Below, in pieces: positions 14,799-25,758 of a stretch of 32,428 bases of DNA. Origin of the DNA: Chloroflexota bacterium. GTDB taxonomy: Bacteria > Chloroflexota > Anaerolineae > Anaerolineales > UBA4823. How positions within the stretch are numbered: position 1 is the stretch's first letter; every line of letters starts with the position of its first letter. The position numbers and the translations under genes were made by a program. The stretch is from positions 1 to 32,428 of the forward strand of contig JAAZNS010000259.1 of assembly GCA_012798185.1 (NCBI GenBank), read 5' to 3'. The notes beneath the pieces were generated by a model. It ran no database searches, was not told the DNA's origin, and saw nothing but the letters and a program-made list of their open reading frames with translations.

Positions 14799-16172
14799 TT
14801 ACCTCCTCGCCTTCATCACAATCCTTATCGGAGTGCCGATATAACCATAATCCCGTCGGATACAGTTTTCTATATAACGCAAATACGAAAAATGCCCTAA
14901 TTTCGGGTCGTTTACATACAATAAAAATGTAGGCGGGTCGCTGCGCACCTGGGTGCCGTAATATATTTTAAGTTGTTTTCCGGCATGTGATGGCGCCGGA
15001 TGCTGATGCTGCGCATTTTGCATTATTTGATTGATCTGTGATGTGGAAAGCCGTACCAGGCGTTCTTCCTGAACCCGCAATGCCATCGGCAGCACCTGCT
15101 CCACCCTTTGCCCTGTCTTGGCAGAGATGAACAGTATTGGTGTGTAATCCATAAAATTCAATGTCTGACGGACATGCTGCGTATAAAGATCCATCGTATT
15201 TGTGTCCTTTTCGATGGCATCCCACTTATTCACCACAACCAATGCGCTTTTCCATGCATCCAAGATAAAACCAGCTATATGTGCATCCTGAGCGGTTAAG
15301 CCGCTGACGGCGTCGGTAACTAAAATTCCTACATCTGCCCGTTCTATCGCCCGCAAGGAACGCAGCACACTACATTTTTCCACACCCGGCTCAATCTTGC
15401 CTCTGCGGCGGATGCCGGCGGTGTCGATTAGCGTTATAGGAATATCTTCAAAAACGATATGCGTATCAATGGCATCTCTCGTTGTTCCGGGTATGGGGCT
15501 GACAATAGCGCGCTCTTCTCCCACCAGTTTATTAAGTAAACTGGATTTACCCACATTCGGCTTGCCCACGATAGCAATTTTTACCGATTCATCTTCTTCC
15601 TCTTCACCTTTGGTTTTAAAAGTTGCTACCAGGGCGTCTAATAAATCCCCCGTTCCTGTGCCATGCAACGCGGATATGGGATAAGGGTCTCCTAAACCCA
15701 ATTCATAAAATTGAACAGCCTGCAGGCGACGCGCTTCGCTATCCGATTTATTCACCACCAAAAGGATTGGCGGAAAAGCTTGTCCATCCCGTTTCTGCTG
15801 GTTCCGCCTTAATATTTCTGCCACCTCCCGATCCGCCGGGGTGACGCCGCTTTCTGCATCGGTAATAAATAACACCGCATCGGCTTCGCGGATAGCAATT
15901 TCTGCCTGGGTACGGATTTCATCAACAAACTCAGTCGAACCAATGGATAACGGTTCTTTGCCAGATCCTGACGCTGTTTGCGTCGGATCTATTCCCCCGG
16001 TATCGACAATGTCAAAGATATGCCCTGCCCATTCTGCCTCGGCTACCAAACGGTCACGGGTAGTGCCGGGAATCTCATCTACCACCGCCAGTCTTTCACC
16101 TGCCAGGCGGTTAAACAATGTACTTTTACCCACGTTAGGGCGTCCAACTAAAGCAATAACAGGTTTTGGCAT
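14799..16172 (-). CDS. der: Ribosome biogenesis GTPase Der (EngA), two G domains
   Basis: GRPNVGKSTLFNRL and GKPNVGKSSLLNKL; DTGG, DTAG, NKSD and NKWD motifs; C-terminal KH-like region. Confidence 0.97.
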   Translation of the reverse strand: MPKPVIALVGRPNVGKSTLFNRLAGERLAVVDEIPGTTRDRLVAEAEWAGHIFDIVDTGGIDPTQTASGSGKEPLSIGSTEFVDEIRTQAEIAIREADAVLFITDAESGVTPADREVAEILRRNQQKRDGQAFPPILLVVNKSDSEARRLQAVQFYELGLGDPYPISALHGTGTGDLLDALVATFKTKGEEEEDESVKIAIVGKPNVGKSSLLNKLVGEERAIVSPIPGTTRDAIDTHIVFEDIPITLIDTAGIRRRGKIEPGVEKCSVLRSLRAIERADVGILVTDAVSGLTAQDAHIAGFILDAWKSALVVVNKWDAIEKDTNTMDLYTQHVRQTLNFMDYTPILFISAKTGQRVEQVLPMALRVQEERLVRLSTSQINQIMQNAQHQHPAPSHAGKQLKIYYGTQVRSDPPTFLLYVNDPKLGHFSYLRYIENCIRRDYGYIGTPIRIVMKARR

Positions 16173-16173
16173 C

Positions 16174-17502
16174 TTATGGTTCAGTATTTGGTTTAGTGTT
16201 TTCAGGTGTTACCGTAGATGTGGGAAGTATCGGGGTAAGCGTAACGGTGGGGTTAATCCGATGCGTAGGGGTTGTAGCAACCGTGACGGTCACTTCCAAA
16301 TTTTGCGGATTAATAGAAGCAACTTTGAGCTGGCTTGGCAGCAAATCGACTTTTGGAACTACCTGATAAGTACCCGGTTCCATTCCAGTCAAATCAACTG
16401 ATACACGAATGCCGCCCGATGTTAGGCTGTTGATTAATGGCAAAGGTCCGCTTATTAATACTTCAACTGATTCTGGGGAAATTTGTGCAGAATATTCTGG
16501 TGATAATCCAATTGCCTGAACCGGCAGCGAAATCGGCAGACTTCCCTCCAAAGCAGCAATACTTAGCCGGATTAACACGCTTTCTTCTCCAGCCAGGGTA
16601 ACATCCGGGGGTAAATTTAATGTGGCGCGGATATCGATATCATCGCTTAACCCAGTAAGATCCACCGGTTTTGTTTCAACATAACCTGGAATTTCATCCA
16701 CCAATTGAGGATCCGCAGAAAAAACAGTCACATTCGGTGGGGAGACCGAAATATTGGTAAGCCAATATCCACTAGCAACTTCGCCAGTGGTCACCACTTT
16801 TACCACAACATTGCGGTAACCTCCCAACAAAGAAATTTGTTGGTTTACCTGAACAGTGCTGGGAGAAACCTCAACATCGGGGACGACATCACCATTTGTG
16901 TCCACCGCTGCGACCATAATATTTTTCTTAATCGATTCACTAGCGCCGCTTATATCAAGTTGTGCAATGACGTTATTCACTTTTTGCACCTTAGATTCAG
17001 GTCCCGAAACATTGATAAACTTCGGGGAGATATTATTTATACCTTGACGATAACCAAGGGAGGGTTCACCGCTTACCATCAACTCAACTGGATATAATTT
17101 ATTGATCAACTTTTCCAAAGTCAGGTTGATCTCATCAGGTTCAACTTTAATGACCTGATTTGGATTAACTGCAATTTGGACCTTTACAGGAATAGCATGA
17201 TTTCCCTCGTTAACTCCTGCAAGGTCGATCCATGCTTTTACCAACTCTGGATTGGAATTTAATTTTGACCAAATTGAGCGCGGTGCTCGTATGGTAATCC
17301 GAGCCTGATGGGGAGTGTTATCCACGATAACGAGCTGAGAATCTAATCCGACTATCGAAATATTCACCAGGCGCGGATATACCTGCACTTCATTAGGGTC
17401 TGCAGCAAGAATTGCCGAAACCCATACAATAAAAGCAAATATAAAAGCCAGCAGCAGCGAGCTTATATTTTTCCCAAACCAGCGAATAATCCTCATTACC
17501 AT
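16174..17502 (-). CDS. cdaR: YbbR-like domain protein, CdaA regulator CdaR
   Basis: N-terminal TM (ISSLLLAFIFAFIVWVSAILAADPNE), repeated YbbR-like modules, adjacent to cdaA. Confidence 0.88.
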   Translation of the reverse strand: MVMRIIRWFGKNISSLLLAFIFAFIVWVSAILAADPNEVQVYPRLVNISIVGLDSQLVIVDNTPHQARITIRAPRSIWSKLNSNPELVKAWIDLAGVNEGNHAIPVKVQIAVNPNQVIKVEPDEINLTLEKLINKLYPVELMVSGEPSLGYRQGINNISPKFINVSGPESKVQKVNNVIAQLDISGASESIKKNIMVAAVDTNGDVVPDVEVSPSTVQVNQQISLLGGYRNVVVKVVTTGEVASGYWLTNISVSPPNVTVFSADPQLVDEIPGYVETKPVDLTGLSDDIDIRATLNLPPDVTLAGEESVLIRLSIAALEGSLPISLPVQAIGLSPEYSAQISPESVEVLISGPLPLINSLTSGGIRVSVDLTGMEPGTYQVVPKVDLLPSQLKVASINPQNLEVTVTVATTPTHRINPTVTLTPILPTSTVTPENTKPNTEP

Positions 17503-17504
17503 GG

Positions 17505-18377
17505 TTAAACGTCCAATTTATTTTTTGAGCTTATCGAGAATATACGGTCGACCCAGTAAGCGAAACACTTCTTTTCTTCTTGTGAACTAAAAATCACGCG
17601 CAATATATTCTCAAGCCGCTCTAAATCCAACCGACGGATCATCCTGCCCCCCTGAACCACAGTGATATTGCCAGTTTCTTCAGATACAACAACAGCAACA
17701 GCATCGGATACTTCTGAAATACCTAAAGATGCCCGGTGCCGAAGCCCCATTTTCCGGTCGGGGGAAGGCGCTAATACACCACTGGATGAAAGTGGCATCA
17801 CGCAAGCCGCGGCAATTATTTTTGAACCCGAAATAATCACAGCGCCATCGTGCAAAGGTGTATTAGGGTAAAACACTTGAAGGAGTAATTCGGGGCTTAC
17901 GGTTGCATTCAATATCACCCCAGTGCTCACATACTCATCCAAGTTATCAAGGCGTTGGATCACAATCAAAGCACCATGTCTTCGTTCAGAGAGCTGCCCA
18001 ACTGCTGCTACAACAGCTGGAATAGTCTTGGGAATATTCGAGGAAGACAACCCGGAGGGTATAATCGAACCAGCTCTGCCTAATCGTTCTAATGTCCTGC
18101 GGATTTCAGGAGCAAAAATAACCGGAACAGCTAATAATAACGCTGGCAATGTATTGCTTACCAGCCATGAAAACGCGGGCAGTACATCCAAACTGGTTAG
18201 CAGACTGAACAGCACGATTATAACCAATGCCCCCCGCAACAAGACCATTGCTTGGGTATCTCGGATTAATTGCAATAAAATAAAAAAAACTAGCGTAACC
18301 AGGAATAAGTCGACCAGGTTAAACCAATTGAGTCTTTCAAATATAAAAACGATATCATTAACCAGATTGGTTATCAC
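17505..18377 (-). CDS. cdaA: Diadenylate cyclase CdaA (DisA_N domain)
   Basis: Three N-terminal TMs, NTPLHDGAVIISGSKIIAAACVMPLS and GLRHRASLGISEVSDAVAVVVSEETG. Confidence 0.97.
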   Translation of the reverse strand: MITNLVNDIVFIFERLNWFNLVDLFLVTLVFFILLQLIRDTQAMVLLRGALVIIVLFSLLTSLDVLPAFSWLVSNTLPALLLAVPVIFAPEIRRTLERLGRAGSIIPSGLSSSNIPKTIPAVVAAVGQLSERRHGALIVIQRLDNLDEYVSTGVILNATVSPELLLQVFYPNTPLHDGAVIISGSKIIAAACVMPLSSSGVLAPSPDRKMGLRHRASLGISEVSDAVAVVVSEETGNITVVQGGRMIRRLDLERLENILRVIFSSQEEKKCFAYWVDRIFSISSKNKLDV

Positions 18378-18390
18378 GGCAAATTTGCTT

Positions 18391-19524
18391 TCAAACCGGC
18401 CTCAAAACGCGGTCTTTACGTAACTCTTTATAGAACAAGATGCTACCCATCGGCATTGATTCCTTTGCTGCTTCTTGCCAAGCACGAGTGCTCAAGCTGT
18501 TTATGTTCCCCTCTTTATAGCCTAAAGAAGTCCAAAGCGCACTCTGCGTTGCCAGATGAGGAGGAATAAATAATAACGCGATCTCGCACTGTAAATTCCG
18601 TGATGCAATTTCCATTTCCTCTAATAAAGCACGAATAACTTCCGAAAAAGGTATTTCGGGATCCCAATAAATATCATCCACGCGGGCAATTAAATTTTCG
18701 ACCTGCCACCCGATAATGCCAATCAATTTTTCCTGACGCCTCAGCAAGAGGAACGCTTTTTCACTCAGCCACGCAATAATGTCATCCGATTTTATTGTCC
18801 GTTGGTTATCAGCAATCCGGTTGATAAAATCTGCCATTTCCATAGCTTGTTTCGGACGTGCCCTTTGCACCGTCATTTGATCCGTTAGAGTTTTTACTTG
18901 TTCGATCAACCCGGCTTCACTTTGGGGAACAGTTCTCTGCCAGGCGGTAAAAACCTGCTGCCATGTATCATCGAAAGATTTATCATTGCGAATGATAATA
19001 TCCGCTAAATCAACTTTCCCTTGCTGAGGCGGCTGCGCTGCCATACGCTGACGGGCAGCGGCTTCATTCATCCCGCGTTTTTGAACCAGCCGTGTAACCT
19101 GAATTTCTTCCGAAGCATATACGACCCAAAGTGTGTCACAACGAGAGCGTAAACCCGATTCGATTAATTTAATTGCCTCGATGACGATAACCATTTGCTG
19201 GGAATGTTTAACCAGCAAATCTACCGCCTGATGAACCAGGGGATGAACAATCGCTTCGAGCTGCGACATGGCTTGACGATCTGAAAACACAATCATCCCT
19301 AATTTATTGCGGTCAATCTGTCCATCAGGGGTTAATATCCATTTTCCGAAATGATCGACAACCGCCTGATACCCTGGGGCGCCTCTAGCAATTGCGCGAT
19401 GCCCTAAAGCATCCGCATCGATGCCATACGCCCCCATATGCTCAAGCATTTTCCTTACGACGCTTTTTCCGGTCGCAATATTCCCTGTTAATCCAATTAC
19501 GTATTTTCCTTGCCAGGCGCTCAT
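18391..19524 (-). CDS. coaE: Dephospho-CoA kinase with C-terminal GNAT-like extension
   Basis: N-terminal CoaE (IGLTGNIATGKSVVRKMLEHMGAYGIDADALGH; HPLVHQAV; VWVVYASEEIQVTRLVQKRGMNEAAARQRMAAQ). C-terminal extension of about 165 aa with acetyltransferase-like layout (VQRARPKQAMEMADFINR...). ATG at 19524 preferred. Confidence 0.9.
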   Translation of the reverse strand: MSAWQGKYVIGLTGNIATGKSVVRKMLEHMGAYGIDADALGHRAIARGAPGYQAVVDHFGKWILTPDGQIDRNKLGMIVFSDRQAMSQLEAIVHPLVHQAVDLLVKHSQQMVIVIEAIKLIESGLRSRCDTLWVVYASEEIQVTRLVQKRGMNEAAARQRMAAQPPQQGKVDLADIIIRNDKSFDDTWQQVFTAWQRTVPQSEAGLIEQVKTLTDQMTVQRARPKQAMEMADFINRIADNQRTIKSDDIIAWLSEKAFLLLRRQEKLIGIIGWQVENLIARVDDIYWDPEIPFSEVIRALLEEMEIASRNLQCEIALLFIPPHLATQSALWTSLGYKEGNINSLSTRAWQEAAKESMPMGSILFYKELRKDRVLRPV

Positions 19525-19543
19525 GTCACTTCCCTTAATATAA

Positions 19544-19586
19544 GACATTCTTCACCCCCATTTTAGCCGGGGGAGCGAAGAATGTC
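19544..19586. other. Strong hairpin between oppF and coaE
   Basis: GACATTCTTC...GAAGAATGTC perfect 10-bp arms with inner CCCC/GGGG pairing; no clear U tract. Confidence 0.5.
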
Positions 19587-19615: not shown

Positions 19616-20635
19616 TTACAAAAACTTCTCTGCGTAATGACAGGCAACCCAATGCCCAGGGCGCAATGCGCGTAATTCGGGTTCGTCTTTTGAGCATATT
19701 TCCTGCGCAACAGGGCACCGTGGATGAAATCGGCAGCCAGAAGGCGGATTAATCGGATTAGGAATTTCCCCTGCAGGCATAACCTGTGTCCTTCGTTCGT
19801 GAGGATTAGGTACCGGCACAGCCGCCATTAACGCTTGTGTATAAGGATGTAATGCATGACCGTATACTTCTCTCAAATCCCCCATTTCAGCCAGCCTGCC
19901 TAAATAGAGAATTCCGATCCGGTCACAAATGTATTTAGCTGTTGCCAGGTCATGGGTGATGAAAAGATACGTTAGATTGAGCTCATTTTTTAATTGCACC
20001 ATCAAGTCCAGCAATAACGCTCTTACACTGACATCCGCCATCGCGATCGGTTCATCCGCCAGGATTAAATCCGGATTGGTTATCAACGCCCTGGCAATTA
20101 CCACCCTTTGCCGCTGTCCACCGGATATTTGATGTGGATACTTAGTAAAAAAGAAATGCGGCGGCGTTAAGCCAACTTTTTCCATAATACTCAATGTAAT
20201 ATCACGGTGTTCGGCGATTTTTTCGGGGTAATGGATCTTTAAACCGTGGGCAATCGAATCACCTAAACACATCCGCGGATTTAGCGATGCCATAGGGTCT
20301 TGAAAAATCACCTGCATCCGCCGGCGGAGTTTGCGTAATTCTTCGCTTTCGAGGGAAGACAGATCGATACCGTCAAACATCACCTTTCCAGCGGTGGGTT
20401 TTTCCAGCCCAATAGCCAGCCTTCCTATGGTTGTTTTTCCGCTCCCGCTTTCTCCAGCCAATCCGAATGCTTCACCTCGTTTTATAGTAAATGAAACATC
20501 ATCGACAGCTCGAACAAAGTCGACATGACCTGCTAATATTTGATCGAGAAAATTCTGTTGAACCGGAAACCATTTTTTTAAATGCGTGATTTCCACTAAA
20601 TTTTCATTTTTATTAATCGATATTTGTTCGCTCAT
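19616..20635 (-). CDS. oppF: Oligopeptide ABC transporter ATP-binding protein (OppF-like)
   Basis: GESGSGKTTIGRL, SGGQRQRVVIARAL, oligo_HPY C-terminal CRFHPRCPVAQEICSKDEPELR. ATG at 20635 overlaps the oppD stop. Confidence 0.94.
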   Translation of the reverse strand: MSEQISINKNENLVEITHLKKWFPVQQNFLDQILAGHVDFVRAVDDVSFTIKRGEAFGLAGESGSGKTTIGRLAIGLEKPTAGKVMFDGIDLSSLESEELRKLRRRMQVIFQDPMASLNPRMCLGDSIAHGLKIHYPEKIAEHRDITLSIMEKVGLTPPHFFFTKYPHQISGGQRQRVVIARALITNPDLILADEPIAMADVSVRALLLDLMVQLKNELNLTYLFITHDLATAKYICDRIGILYLGRLAEMGDLREVYGHALHPYTQALMAAVPVPNPHERRTQVMPAGEIPNPINPPSGCRFHPRCPVAQEICSKDEPELRALRPGHWVACHYAEKFL

Positions 20636-21648
20636 GCTTTTACCTTTATGGTCGAGCGTTCCTTTTGAGGATGATCCTGGTATAACCAGCAATGCACCCA
20701 TCTGCCAGGCACAACCTCCTCCATATTCGGACAAAATCGAGAGCACAGGGGCATTGCCTCAGGGCATCGCGGGTGGAATCGGCACCCCGATGGAGGGTGT
20801 GTCAGGTTAGGCGGTTCGCCGCTCATTTTGTATAATTCTTCATGATCATCGAGCTTTATGCTTGGCACAGAGCTTAATAATCCTATTGTATAAGGATGCA
20901 AAGGATTATCAAAGATATTAGTGATATCTCCTAACTCTACGATCTGACCTGCATACATTACCGCAATGCGGTCAGCTATTTCAGCAACCAGGGCAATGTT
21001 ATGGGTAATTACCAGAATTGCCAAACCAAATTCTTCTCGGATTTCGCGCAATTGATCGACCAGCTTGGCTTCGACAATCACATCGAGAGACGTGGTTGCT
21101 TCATCAGCAATAATCAAATCGGCATTTAGGATCAATCCCAAACCAATCATCACCCGTTGGCGCATTCCACCTGAAAGCTGATGGGGGTAATCGCGCAACC
21201 GGCGCTCTTGAATTCCCAGCCTTCCAATAAGTGTACGAACTCTCTCCTGGGCATTTTCCAATACCGTTTTGGGTTCGTGAACCTGAATAGCTTCGATAAG
21301 ATGTTCATCGACGCGCTGCACCGGATTCAACGAGGTCATCGGGTCTTGGAATATCATGCTTATTCGTCTGCCGCGAAAATCGCGCAGGCGTTTTTGGTCA
21401 AATTTCATCACATCTTCGCCGTCGAAAATGATTGCACCACTGCTAATTTTAGCCGGCGGCATGATCATGCGCATGAGCGCTTTTCCCAGAGTACTTTTAC
21501 CACACCCGCTTTCACCCACCAAGCCTAATATTTCACCGCGATAAATGTCGAAAGAAACATCATTAACAGCGCTTACTGGACCAAGCCGTGTATGGTAATT
21601 AACACTTAAATTTCGCACTTGAACAAGAACTTTATCGTTTGACATCAT
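20632..21648 (-). CDS. oppD: Oligopeptide ABC transporter ATP-binding protein (OppD-like)
   Basis: GESGCGKSTLGKAL, LSGGMRQRVMIGLGL, DEATTSLDV, C-terminal CRFHPRCPEAMPLCSRF. Confidence 0.95.
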   Translation of the reverse strand: MMSNDKVLVQVRNLSVNYHTRLGPVSAVNDVSFDIYRGEILGLVGESGCGKSTLGKALMRMIMPPAKISSGAIIFDGEDVMKFDQKRLRDFRGRRISMIFQDPMTSLNPVQRVDEHLIEAIQVHEPKTVLENAQERVRTLIGRLGIQERRLRDYPHQLSGGMRQRVMIGLGLILNADLIIADEATTSLDVIVEAKLVDQLREIREEFGLAILVITHNIALVAEIADRIAVMYAGQIVELGDITNIFDNPLHPYTIGLLSSVPSIKLDDHEELYKMSGEPPNLTHPPSGCRFHPRCPEAMPLCSRFCPNMEEVVPGRWVHCWLYQDHPQKERSTIKVKA

Positions 21649-21649
21649 T

Positions 21650-22921
21650 TTACAGCTCCGCCAGACGAGGGTTCAAAATTTCGGATAAACTCTCGCCCAA
21701 CATGCTAAAAGCCAGGGTGACCATACTTACCATTAACCCGGGAAAGGTGATCAGCCACCAGGCTCGGCGCAGGTAATCCTGTCCGCGCGCCAGGTCAATC
21801 CCCCAATCAGGTGTATCAGGTGGCAGCCCCAAACCTAAAAAGCTTAAGCCTGCTTCAGTTAATATCGCATCGGCAACATTTACAGAGAAGATAATTACAA
21901 TGGAAGGGATCACATTGGGAAAGATATATTTCCATAATATTGTGCTTGGTTTTGCACCTAAACTGCGTGCTGCCTCAACGTATAATTCTTGCTTTACAGA
22001 AAGGGTCTGGCCGCGCACAATACGAAAATAAGTGGGCACATAAAGCACAGCAATCGCGACAATCACATTACCAATCCCAGCCCCCAGTACTGCCGCAATG
22101 GAAATTGCCAGAATCAATCCCGGGAAAGAATATAAACTGTCCATCAGCAGGGTTAATATCCGATCGAAAGGTCCGCTGATAAACCCGCTGATTAAACCCA
22201 GCGGCACGCCGACTAGAATCGAAACAATGGCTGAGGAAAGTCCTACAATCAAAGCGATGCGAGTGCCCCAGATAATGCGGCTGAATATATCCTGCCCAAT
22301 TTGGTTGGTACCAAAAATAAACCCTTTAGCAGTTTCTTCGCGTAACGCTCCGCAGATTTCAAGCTGGGGATATTTTTCGATAATACCCTCCAGCTCAGCA
22401 GGCGCTGCAATGAACCCGTTCACTTCTCCTGCAGCGGTTGCCTCCAAACCTTCTTCCAGAGTCTCGAATCGGATTGGGCGCGGATTATATGTCGCAGGCT
22501 CACCAGCTGCCTTAGCTTCATCATTCAACGCTGTGACAGCCTCCCGTAATGCCTGGCTTGAAGGGCTGGCAACGACTATTCCCACCTTGTTTTTCGAGGA
22601 AGCTATCTCTTTAAATTCCTTGATGTCAGAATCTATATTTGCGACCAGCACAAATGACGAGGGAGCTTCTCCGGGAGCGAGCAAGGATGAACTAACTTCT
22701 GCTTTTGGATCGTAGGGGGCAAACCATTGAGGAAATATTCCAATTATGATAATAAACAACAGCAAAAAAGCGCTGAGTACTACAAACCACCAATCACCGC
22801 CATACCATTTACGCGCTAGAAAAATCTTGCGGACAAATCCAACCCGGTCTAAATCCAATTGCCATTGCGGCACGACATATTCTTGGTCAATATCATTGTC
22901 ATGAGTATTTTTTTCATTCAT
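21650..22921 (-). CDS. oppC: Oligopeptide ABC transporter permease (OppC-like) with a large periplasmic insertion
   Basis: Canonical OppC ends (FAPYDPKAE...; FGTNQIGQDIFSRIIWGTRIALIVGLSSAIVSILVGVPLGLISG; YVPTYFRIVRGQTLSVKQELYVEAARSLGA) with about 113 extra residues (89-201) between them. ATG at 22921 preferred over the ORF-track start 23146. Confidence 0.92.
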   Translation of the reverse strand: MNEKNTHDNDIDQEYVVPQWQLDLDRVGFVRKIFLARKWYGGDWWFVVLSAFLLLFIIIIGIFPQWFAPYDPKAEVSSSLLAPGEAPSSFVLVANIDSDIKEFKEIASSKNKVGIVVASPSSQALREAVTALNDEAKAAGEPATYNPRPIRFETLEEGLEATAAGEVNGFIAAPAELEGIIEKYPQLEICGALREETAKGFIFGTNQIGQDIFSRIIWGTRIALIVGLSSAIVSILVGVPLGLISGFISGPFDRILTLLMDSLYSFPGLILAISIAAVLGAGIGNVIVAIAVLYVPTYFRIVRGQTLSVKQELYVEAARSLGAKPSTILWKYIFPNVIPSIVIIFSVNVADAILTEAGLSFLGLGLPPDTPDWGIDLARGQDYLRRAWWLITFPGLMVSMVTLAFSMLGESLSEILNPRLAEL

Positions 22922-22931
22922 AATCAGCGCC

Positions 22932-23954
22932 TTAATAACGAATTCTCGGGTCAATAAATGCGTATAAGAAATCCATTGCCAGGCTGATGATTGCCACAAA
23001 AAAAGCAAAAACACCAATGGTAGCTTGAACAGCCGTATAATCACGCAATTCGATCCGATCGACCAGATAACGCCCCATTCCAGGCCAGGAGAATGTTGTC
23101 TCGGTAAGCACTGCACCAGCCAATAGAATAGCAAATTGTAAACCAATCAATGTGAGAATTGGAATGAATGTGTTCCTTAAGGCATGTTTGTAAACCAGGC
23201 GCCTTTCGGGCAATCCCCGCGCTCTGCCTGCGGTTATAAAATCTGCCTGGAGCATTTCGATCATATTAACTCGGGTTAGGCGGATGAAAACGCCGGTTAA
23301 CGCCAACCCAAGGGTGAGCGAAGGTAAAATCAAATGGGATATACATGACCGGAAAGCAGCCCAATTTCCTTGTAATATCGAATCAAGCACATAAAAATGG
23401 GTTATTGGTCGGAAATTAGTCATCATTAAAGTATCCATTCTGCCTGCCAGCGGCAAAATGGGAATTCGCACGGAAAAAATGATCTGGAAAACCAACCCCA
23501 TAAAAAAGATAGGGATTGAATACACTGCGATGCTGAACAAACGAATACCGTAATCGATGGTCTTCTTGCGCTTTTCAGCAGCATAGGCACCGCTGACTAT
23601 CCCAAAGATTGCTGTAAAAATCATGGCAGGGACAGTCAATTCAATCGTTGCCGGTAATTTTTCACCCAGTTCATCGATAATCGGACGTTCACCCTGGGTA
23701 AGTGCCGTGCCAAAATCAAGAGTTACCATTTTCCAAAGGAAATCGAAATACTGCACGTAAAGCGGACGGTTCAAGCCGAGCCGTTCTCTTAGTGCCATGG
23801 CTTGCTCTTCGCTTACCTTTGGTCCAAGCTGAGATCGAATTGGATCACCAGGAAGTATCCGCATAACGATAAAAACCATGGTGATTAAAATCCAAATCAT
23901 CGGGATGGTTAAAAAAATTCGAGTGATTAAAAAATTCCTGAGGGAGGATGACAT
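22932..23954 (-). CDS. oppB: Oligopeptide ABC transporter permease (OppB-like)
   Basis: FLITRIFLTIPMIWILITMVFIVMRILPGDPI...; EAA-loop ITAGRARGLPERRLVYKHALRNTFIPILT; C-terminal AFFVAIISLAMDFLYAFIDPRIRY. Confidence 0.95.
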   Translation of the reverse strand: MSSSLRNFLITRIFLTIPMIWILITMVFIVMRILPGDPIRSQLGPKVSEEQAMALRERLGLNRPLYVQYFDFLWKMVTLDFGTALTQGERPIIDELGEKLPATIELTVPAMIFTAIFGIVSGAYAAEKRKKTIDYGIRLFSIAVYSIPIFFMGLVFQIIFSVRIPILPLAGRMDTLMMTNFRPITHFYVLDSILQGNWAAFRSCISHLILPSLTLGLALTGVFIRLTRVNMIEMLQADFITAGRARGLPERRLVYKHALRNTFIPILTLIGLQFAILLAGAVLTETTFSWPGMGRYLVDRIELRDYTAVQATIGVFAFFVAIISLAMDFLYAFIDPRIRY

Positions 23955-23980
23955 GCAAAACACTCCGTAAAAAATTCAAG

Positions 23981-24054: not shown

Positions 24055-25758
24055 CTACTCACCGCCAGTCATGTAAGTGCAGTTGAATACAAGATACCGC
24101 AGGGTGGGGGCATCGATCTTGGTGACGGTCAATCCTTCGACGCTTTGCAGCCGTGTCGCTTCAACAGCGCCAAGAATTCGCCAGGCGATATCGATTTCGC
24201 CTTTTTCAACTGCCTGACTCATAGTGGTCGGGTCGGCGAAGTAGCGGATAATCACTTTGGGGATGATTGGTTTATCATCACCAAAATAATTCGGATTGGC
24301 TTCCAAAACCATTTGCTCACCTGCAACATAGGAAACCATGCGGTAAGGACCAACACCGTCCAAAGCAGTTGGGAATTGGACAATTTTATCTGCCGGGAAT
24401 TGATTAGGATTCACCGGTACAAATGGAGCAGTAGCAGCAATGGCAGGGAAGAAACCGAATGAATCTTTAAGGTGGTAAACCACGGTCAGATCATCGGGAG
24501 CTTCCACGCTTTCCACATAGATCTGCACCAAACCTGAAACCTGCCCTTCCAATGTGTTGATCCGATCCCAGGCATAAACATAATCTTTTGCCGTAAGCGG
24601 CGTGCCATCGGCAAATTTAACACCTTCGCGCAGTTTGAAGGTATAGGTCTTGCCATCTTCGCTAACAGTGGGTAATTCTGCTGCCACGCCGGGAATCAAA
24701 TCCGCAGTTCCGGGGGCGTATGTCAACAGAGGCACCCCGGTGTTCTTCAAGATTTCCCAGTCGTGCGTGGCATAGGCATCGTTTGCATCGAGGCTGTTTA
24801 CTTCATCGGTAGTGCCAATGATCAGCGTGTCGGTGCTGCCCGAAGCTGGAACAGCATCAGCCGCAAAGCTGACGATGTTGTAGTTGAATTCAAAGGGTGG
24901 GCCAATCTTAACCCCTTCGATGCCTTTTCGGGTTGTTACGAATTCCGGTTCCCAAAACATGGGGATGGTGGGAACTTCTTCTGCATACAATTCGCCAATT
25001 TCCTTATAAGTCGCTTCACGTACTGCCGGATCAGAGGATGATGCTGCTTTTTGCAGCAAAGCATCCATCTTCTCATTGCAGTAATTCACCCCATTATCTG
25101 GTGATTGCAGGCAGGAAGCAAAAGGCGTCAGCCAGGTATCAGGATCAGCAAAATCGGGGAACCAGCCCAGCATAAACATGGGCAGTTTTCCAGCCACAAA
25201 GCTGTCAACATATTCAGCCCAGTTTTGACTTTTAAGTTCGACCTTCATCAAGCCAGTCTCTTCCAATTGTTCCTTGATCACCTGCATCACATCAGCGGTC
25301 GTAGTGCCATAATGCTCAGGTGGATACCATAGCTCGAAGGTAAATGGATTGTCTTCGGTGTAACCCAAACTGGTGAGAATTTGTTTAGAAAGTTCCAGAT
25401 CGCGGGTACCATATTTATCTAGAAACGCTTCGGTAGCATAAGGATATCCCGGTGGAACCATATGGTAAGCAGGTGCATTTCGGCCTTCGAAGACACGGTC
25501 AACAATGACCTCGCGATCAATAGCGGCTGCAATAGCCGAGCGGAGTTCTTTGCTCCATAAAAGATGTGGTTCTTCCGTAGGTTCTTCAGTTGCAACCGGT
25601 TCTTCGGTGGCAACCGGCGCTTCAGTAACTACAGGCGCCTCTGTGGCAGCAGCCTCTTCAGTTGCTACAGGAGCTGCTGTTGGCGTCGTGCAAGCGCCCA
25701 GCGCCATACTAAGCAACACTAATAAAACGCCTAATTTGTAAAGTATTTTTTTATTCAT
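24055..25758 (-). CDS. Peptide ABC transporter substrate-binding lipoprotein (SBP_bac_5 family), apparently circularly permuted
   Basis: Signal peptide/lipobox MNKKILYKLGVLLVLLSMALGAC, TEEP-rich linker. SBP_bac_5 C-terminal half (residues ~65-298: ELRSAIAAAIDREVIV...NYNIVSF) precedes the N-terminal half (~309-560: TDTLIIGTTDEVNSLDANDAYATHD...LRYLVFNC). Confidence 0.92.
   Translation of the reverse strand: MNKKILYKLGVLLVLLSMALGACTTPTAAPVATEEAAATEAPVVTEAPVATEEPVATEEPTEEPHLLWSKELRSAIAAAIDREVIVDRVFEGRNAPAYHMVPPGYPYATEAFLDKYGTRDLELSKQILTSLGYTEDNPFTFELWYPPEHYGTTTADVMQVIKEQLEETGLMKVELKSQNWAEYVDSFVAGKLPMFMLGWFPDFADPDTWLTPFASCLQSPDNGVNYCNEKMDALLQKAASSSDPAVREATYKEIGELYAEEVPTIPMFWEPEFVTTRKGIEGVKIGPPFEFNYNIVSFAADAVPASGSTDTLIIGTTDEVNSLDANDAYATHDWEILKNTGVPLLTYAPGTADLIPGVAAELPTVSEDGKTYTFKLREGVKFADGTPLTAKDYVYAWDRINTLEGQVSGLVQIYVESVEAPDDLTVVYHLKDSFGFFPAIAATAPFVPVNPNQFPADKIVQFPTALDGVGPYRMVSYVAGEQMVLEANPNYFGDDKPIIPKVIIRYFADPTTMSQAVEKGEIDIAWRILGAVEATRLQSVEGLTVTKIDAPTLRYLVFNCTYMTGGE

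Follow-up and report, generated by a model that had tools for sequence, protein, structure and literature searches.

The window analyzed here, a 32,428-nucleotide stretch of a Chloroflexota metagenome-assembled genome (MAG), encodes a predicted peptide-binding lipoprotein of the SBP_bac_5 family in which the two canonical halves of the sequence occur in reversed order. The data support the identity of this protein as a natural circular permutant of a single SBP_bac_5 gene. It is very probably a working extracytoplasmic binding protein of the OppA/DppA type, permuted by nature, in which the tether has passed from lobe 1 to lobe 2. The gene, its parts, and the transporter genes encoded alongside are listed in Table 1.

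Table 1. Coordinates in the window of the permuted binding protein gene, its segments, and the neighboring opp genes.
Feature	Position	Strand	Basis or remark
Permuted SBP_bac_5 protein, predicted peptide-binding lipoprotein (P0001)	24055..25758	-	567 aa, open over 567 codons
Signal peptide and putative lipobox, residues 1-23 (...MALGAC)	25690..25758	-	read from the translation by eye
Low-complexity E/P/T/A linker, residues 24-64	25567..25689	-	pLDDT mostly <50
Canonical C-terminal half, residues 65-298	24865..25566	-	PF00496 and PDB matches
Join of former termini, residues 299-308 (AADAVPASGS)	24835..24864	-	alignment of A-type members
Canonical N-terminal half, residues 309-562	24073..24834	-	PF00496 and PDB matches
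oppB-type permease	22932..23963	-	BPD_transp_1; orthologs in all long A-type loci
oppC-type permease	21650..23146	-	BPD_transp_1 at ORF residues 313-496; true start probably further downstream, as the ORF overlaps oppB
oppD-type ATPase	20632..21648	-	ABC_tran, oligo_HPY
oppF-type ATPase	19616..20746	-	ABC_tran, oligo_HPY; true start probably near 20620, as the ORF overlaps oppD

The Pfam profile PF00496 matches the window protein with a score of 270.9 bits, against a gathering cut-off of 32.4, in two stretches of reversed order: residues 69-218 correspond to profile positions 215-365, and residues 354-561 to positions 2-209. The two halves are complementary on the profile, with little overlap. 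The same reversal is apparent in matches to the PDB structures of MppA, OppA, and DppA, obtained with the window protein and with a 17-member profile as the query, and in the NCBIfam models. Searched separately, each half matches the family (E = 9e-29 and 1e-50), which excludes chance. As a control, the canonical homolog L064 furnished a single collinear Pfam match (residues 95-459 to PF00496 positions 2-366), and was collinear in its best NCBIfam families as well. Reversal of the window protein across models, together with collinearity of L064, demonstrates that the swap is real and no property of the models. Swapped SBP_bac_5 halves had been proposed in a sequence-only reading of this DNA, the half boundaries of which proved right to within a few residues; that reading had named a profile alignment in canonical order, a misassembly, and matches to two different binding proteins as outcomes that would speak against it, and none of these appeared.

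By alignment to the PDB structures, residues 65-298 comprise most of lobe 2, the hinge strand, and the last strand of lobe 1; this half carries Asp202 of the GWFPD motif, aligned with MppA Asp439. Residues 309-562 comprise lobe 1, with its subdomains 1a and 1b, and the strand RYLVF, which is the first of lobe 2. We refer to proteins cut after this first strand of lobe 2 as type A. The putative LGAC lipobox of the window protein was seen by eye in the translation, and a regular expression detected a lipobox in 18 of 24 type A ORFs, some of the other six being cut at contig ends. One type A member lacks an evident lipobox (L051:5692-7494(+)) and has an N-terminal stretch that resembles LysM by eye, for which a Pfam search at 1e-3 gave no confirmation; this protein may possibly have swapped its lipid anchor for wall binding.

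The permuted order is conserved. It recurs in ~20 genomes, with collinear orthologs that are about 70-87% identical; full-length matches are present in the relatives G001 (87%) and G013 (75%). In a scan of genome contigs, 18 of 19 loci were permuted, counting one partial locus, L060, the contig of which begins inside the gene, and one locus, L064, was canonical. Among 396 genomes of the class, querying with the junction retrieved type A from 13, a divergent sequence in genome G345 included, and querying across the old breakpoint retrieved canonical members of the same subfamily from 27 other genomes; at one match per genome, none possessed both forms. Relative to G001, dN is 0.085 and dS is 2.45, for a dN/dS of about 0.035; as dS is saturated, only the direction, strong purifying selection in general, is safe to read from this ratio. 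This leads us to reject a pseudogene, in keeping with the sequence-only reading.

That two SBP fragments were joined in the wrong order during assembly or binning is a concern for any single contig of a 517-contig MAG, which the window is. The likelihood of such an artefact is negligible here, as the identical order and join, with the operon intact, recur in the ~20 independently assembled genomes, and the carriers include a MAG submitted as one chromosome (CP070764) and two cultured isolates, Longilinea arvoryzae KOME-1 and Anaerolinea thermolimosa IMO-1; the isolate genomes refute an assembly error. Under another explanation, the two segments come from two different SBPs and were fused, instead of being complementary halves of a single gene; the genome does offer many SBP_bac_5 paralogs (20 places). 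The phylogeny speaks to this point. After permuted members were rotated to canonical order, the main type A group was recovered as sister to L064, the nearest canonical-order homolog (58% and 60% identical for the two halves), which derives from an Anaerolineae MAG (JAFGNU010000039.1); this node was weaker (88/59) in a more careful tree. Trees built from the N-terminal and C-terminal halves each placed type A as sister to L064 (SH-aLRT 98 and 96), with the remainder broadly congruent. The agreement between the half trees indicates that both halves derive from one gene lineage, and we reject a fusion of two different SBPs, very improbable also in light of the complementarity of the halves. Descent by circular permutation of one gene, as originally proposed, is thus borne out by the reversed order on the profile, by the collinear orthologs, by the agreeing half trees, and by an unpermuted sister in the same operon.

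In type A loci with sufficient flanking sequence, the gene is the first of an oppA-B-C-D-F operon, and the placement of the window gene at the head of a complete opp operon had been recognized from the outset. The long type A loci possess identical gene order, with orthologous partners that are 66-94% identical. The canonical genes of L064, L065, and L066 likewise come first in this operon; their partners are about 52-63% identical. The presence of orthologous OppBCDF beside both forms suggests that permuted and canonical proteins serve the same importer, and this sharing points to conversion of a canonical gene in place; the lack of any sampled genome with both forms looks like conversion in place as well. 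In genome G004, two tandem copies of canonical-order binding proteins of this subfamily precede one oppBCDF set (L065:7047-10642(-)). In other canonical members of the type A subfamily, L095, L096, and L097 among them, an amino-acid-type SBP (SBP_bac_3-like by eye) is fused ahead of SBP_bac_5 in the same ORF, furnishing double binding proteins within the opp operon. Downstream of the opp operon, the window encodes CoaE, diadenylate cyclase (DAC), YbbR, and EngA/Der consecutively (14799-19548(-)), an ordinary arrangement.

With MppA numbering anchored on Trp436 and Asp439 in the alignment, the type A cut maps near MppA residues 300-303, inside domain 2 (288-506) and past the hinge residues 286-287. 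By this alignment, the chain retains its two passages through the hinge and the new termini lie on lobe 2; loss of one hinge crossing through the cut is rejected. In structural terms, the cut would fall in the loop that follows the opening β-strand of lobe 2, some dozen residues beyond the first hinge crossing. A short loop would connect the old termini, both in lobe 1a, and the fold should remain bilobed, with its two hinge crossings. AlphaFold2 modeling with 17 sequences reached moderate confidence (pLDDT 73.8, pTM 0.68); a single-sequence model was useless (pLDDT 37.6). The best Foldseek hits were all SBP_bac_5 family members, with only about 215-260 columns aligned of targets 480-550 residues in length, as expected if a sequential aligner follows one half only; half-length alignments alone are no proof of a permuted fold. 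In MppA, Asp439 binds the amino group of the peptide (PMC6022919). The GWxxD motif is present in all type A members, and its Asp, aligned with MppA Asp439, is invariant in the A1 group. As the simplest reading of its role, the window protein would capture a peptide between its lobes, where Asp202 would bind the amino group of the peptide, and pass it on to the OppBCDF importer encoded alongside. The lipid anchor and linker would enter lobe 2, as opposed to lobe 1 (1a) in canonical members.

Recurrence of the permutation in other subfamilies, with other cut points, went beyond what the sequence-only reading had seen. For the classification of all fetched ORFs, we used a profile of canonical members drawn from this genome and from its relatives. 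Type B proteins start and end in lobe 1b; they constitute a separate, widespread SBP_bac_5 group (L101, L038, L039, and L104-L133) of at least 34 distinct sequences. Of 301 genomes from the phylum, about 36 contain the type B junction at full length. Type C proteins (L023, L026, L138, and L139) are about 700 aa in length and are cut as in type A, while belonging to another subfamily; type D proteins (L144 and L147) belong to the subfamily of type C and are cut between 1b and 1a. One type A sequence containing Ns and one truncated type B sequence were left out of the type C and D counts. In types B and D, the tether would have moved to 1b and to the 1b/1a border, respectively. Every permuted type examined with enough flank directly adjoins oppB and oppC; in G076, the C2 contig stops within the gene. 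On plasmids, we found no match to the type A junction and no convincing full match to the type B junction.

A tree of 108 rotated sequences requires six changes of order. AU tests, for groups that arose from the trees and searches of this analysis so that the p-values are not strictly those of pre-named hypotheses, rejected a single origin of the C types in a careful tree of the C/D subfamily (p = 1.8e-6) and a single origin of C plus D (p = 8e-82); a single origin of type A and the G345 sequence (type A'), which comes from one fragmented MAG, was rejected only moderately (p = 0.013). Two C-type permutants and one D-type permutant thus arose separately in the ~700-aa subfamily. Phylogenetically, the data support at least five independent permutations of SBP_bac_5 in Chloroflexota, or six if G345 is counted.

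Several ORFs extend type B proteins with further domains. A Ser/Thr protein kinase domain (PF00069) is fused ahead of a type B SBP in L102:4289-7114(+), and also in L037, followed by a second type B gene and oppBC; a peptide-sensing kinase is a possible reading of this fusion. A MalE-type SBP (by eye) precedes the type B SBP in the same ORF at L195:2662-5550(-), and at L105 a branched-chain amino-acid-type SBP (by eye) does so.

The textbook explanation for circular permutation is tandem duplication with trimming (PMC3320104), and the permutations of this family probably arose in this manner, as the sequence-only reading had supposed for the window gene; that proposal retains its plausibility, since tandem canonical copies, as could precede a permutation, exist in G004, while the intermediates and remnants that it might have left did not turn up. 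Specifically, no duplication intermediate was present among very long SBP ORFs, which are fusions to other domains, and no remnant of a second copy was found beside the window gene. The join had likewise been read as the leftover of an ancestral linker. This was not borne out: nearly the whole of the main A clade retains (P)ASG, which makes it a conserved feature rather than an obvious relic. The want of a tandem-fused intermediate or gene remnant gives some room to fission and refusion, or to cut-and-paste, as the origin. We consider such a route unlikely, as we encountered no split-gene homologs, G004 does possess canonical copies in tandem, and the lipoprotein signal stays in front in every permuted type, as trimming of a duplicate would give. 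Among the very long ORFs, a canonical SBP_bac_5 lies beside a papain-like protease, by eye, in L188:2414-6301(-) (1296 aa), and is embedded beside repeat- and protease-like regions, by eye, in L189 (1852 aa).

Whether the permutations have been of benefit is a separate question. The odds are about even that they are functionally neutral, arising as a side effect when oppA genes duplicate in tandem, as they would do frequently; the new order would be tolerated since the fold closes on itself, and the moved tether would have no role. Both forms, canonical and permuted, depend on orthologous transporters in equal operon order, and the cut points vary by type with no common new feature evident, as neutrality would have it. 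Set against this, five or more permutations have become stably fixed in a single phylum and type B has long been retained across Chloroflexota, which suggests, without proof, more than neutrality. A bolder and rather doubtful proposal is that Chloroflexota repeatedly and adaptively re-thread OppA-type proteins, whereby the anchor comes to sit on lobe 2, on 1b, or at the 1b/1a border and fold, site, and transporter are unchanged.

OppA, DppA, and MppA belong to structural SBP cluster C. With these PF00496 proteins the window protein shares homology over both halves, a putative lipoprotein nature (judged here from the by-eye lipobox), the position as first gene of oppABCDF, and the GWxxD motif with the Asp for the peptide amine; it differs in its reversed halves, in termini that lie in lobe 2 beside the first hinge, and in a tether on lobe 2. 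L064 shares the operon and differs in its canonical order. The one precedent that we found for natural permutation of a solute-binding protein is Tp0684/MglB-2 of Treponema pallidum, designated 'Type Ic / Cluster Bc', for which a link to tethering was proposed (PMC4990184). MglB-2 is likewise a naturally permuted, tethered ABC-transporter binding protein common to several species, but is a cluster B sugar-binding protein of another fold class (PMC4990184). Its permutation adds a fourth hinge crossing (PMC4990184), whereas the window protein should keep two. The listed sequence and fold hits of the window protein are all to the SBP_bac_5 family, with none to the cluster B sugar-binding fold. 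No report of permuted SBP_bac_5/OppA proteins was found in a full-text literature search, the coverage of which excludes subscription journals and most preprints; a permutation in the OppA class appears unreported in the searchable literature.

Natural permutations of binding proteins are rare in that literature, and here several independent ones, with different cut points, occur in one family. Since unpermuted sisters head the same operon, the effect of tether and termini on folding, on opening and closing, and on importer docking is directly testable. The finding also bears on annotation: procedures that are blind to domain order label permuted genes as ordinary, and alignments or structure searches that depend on order catch only half of the permuted proteins. 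The natural cut points could guide the engineering of permuted biosensors. Should the re-threading of OppA-type proteins in Chloroflexota indeed be adaptive, recurrent circular permutation would be an evolutionary way of re-orienting a tethered binding protein.
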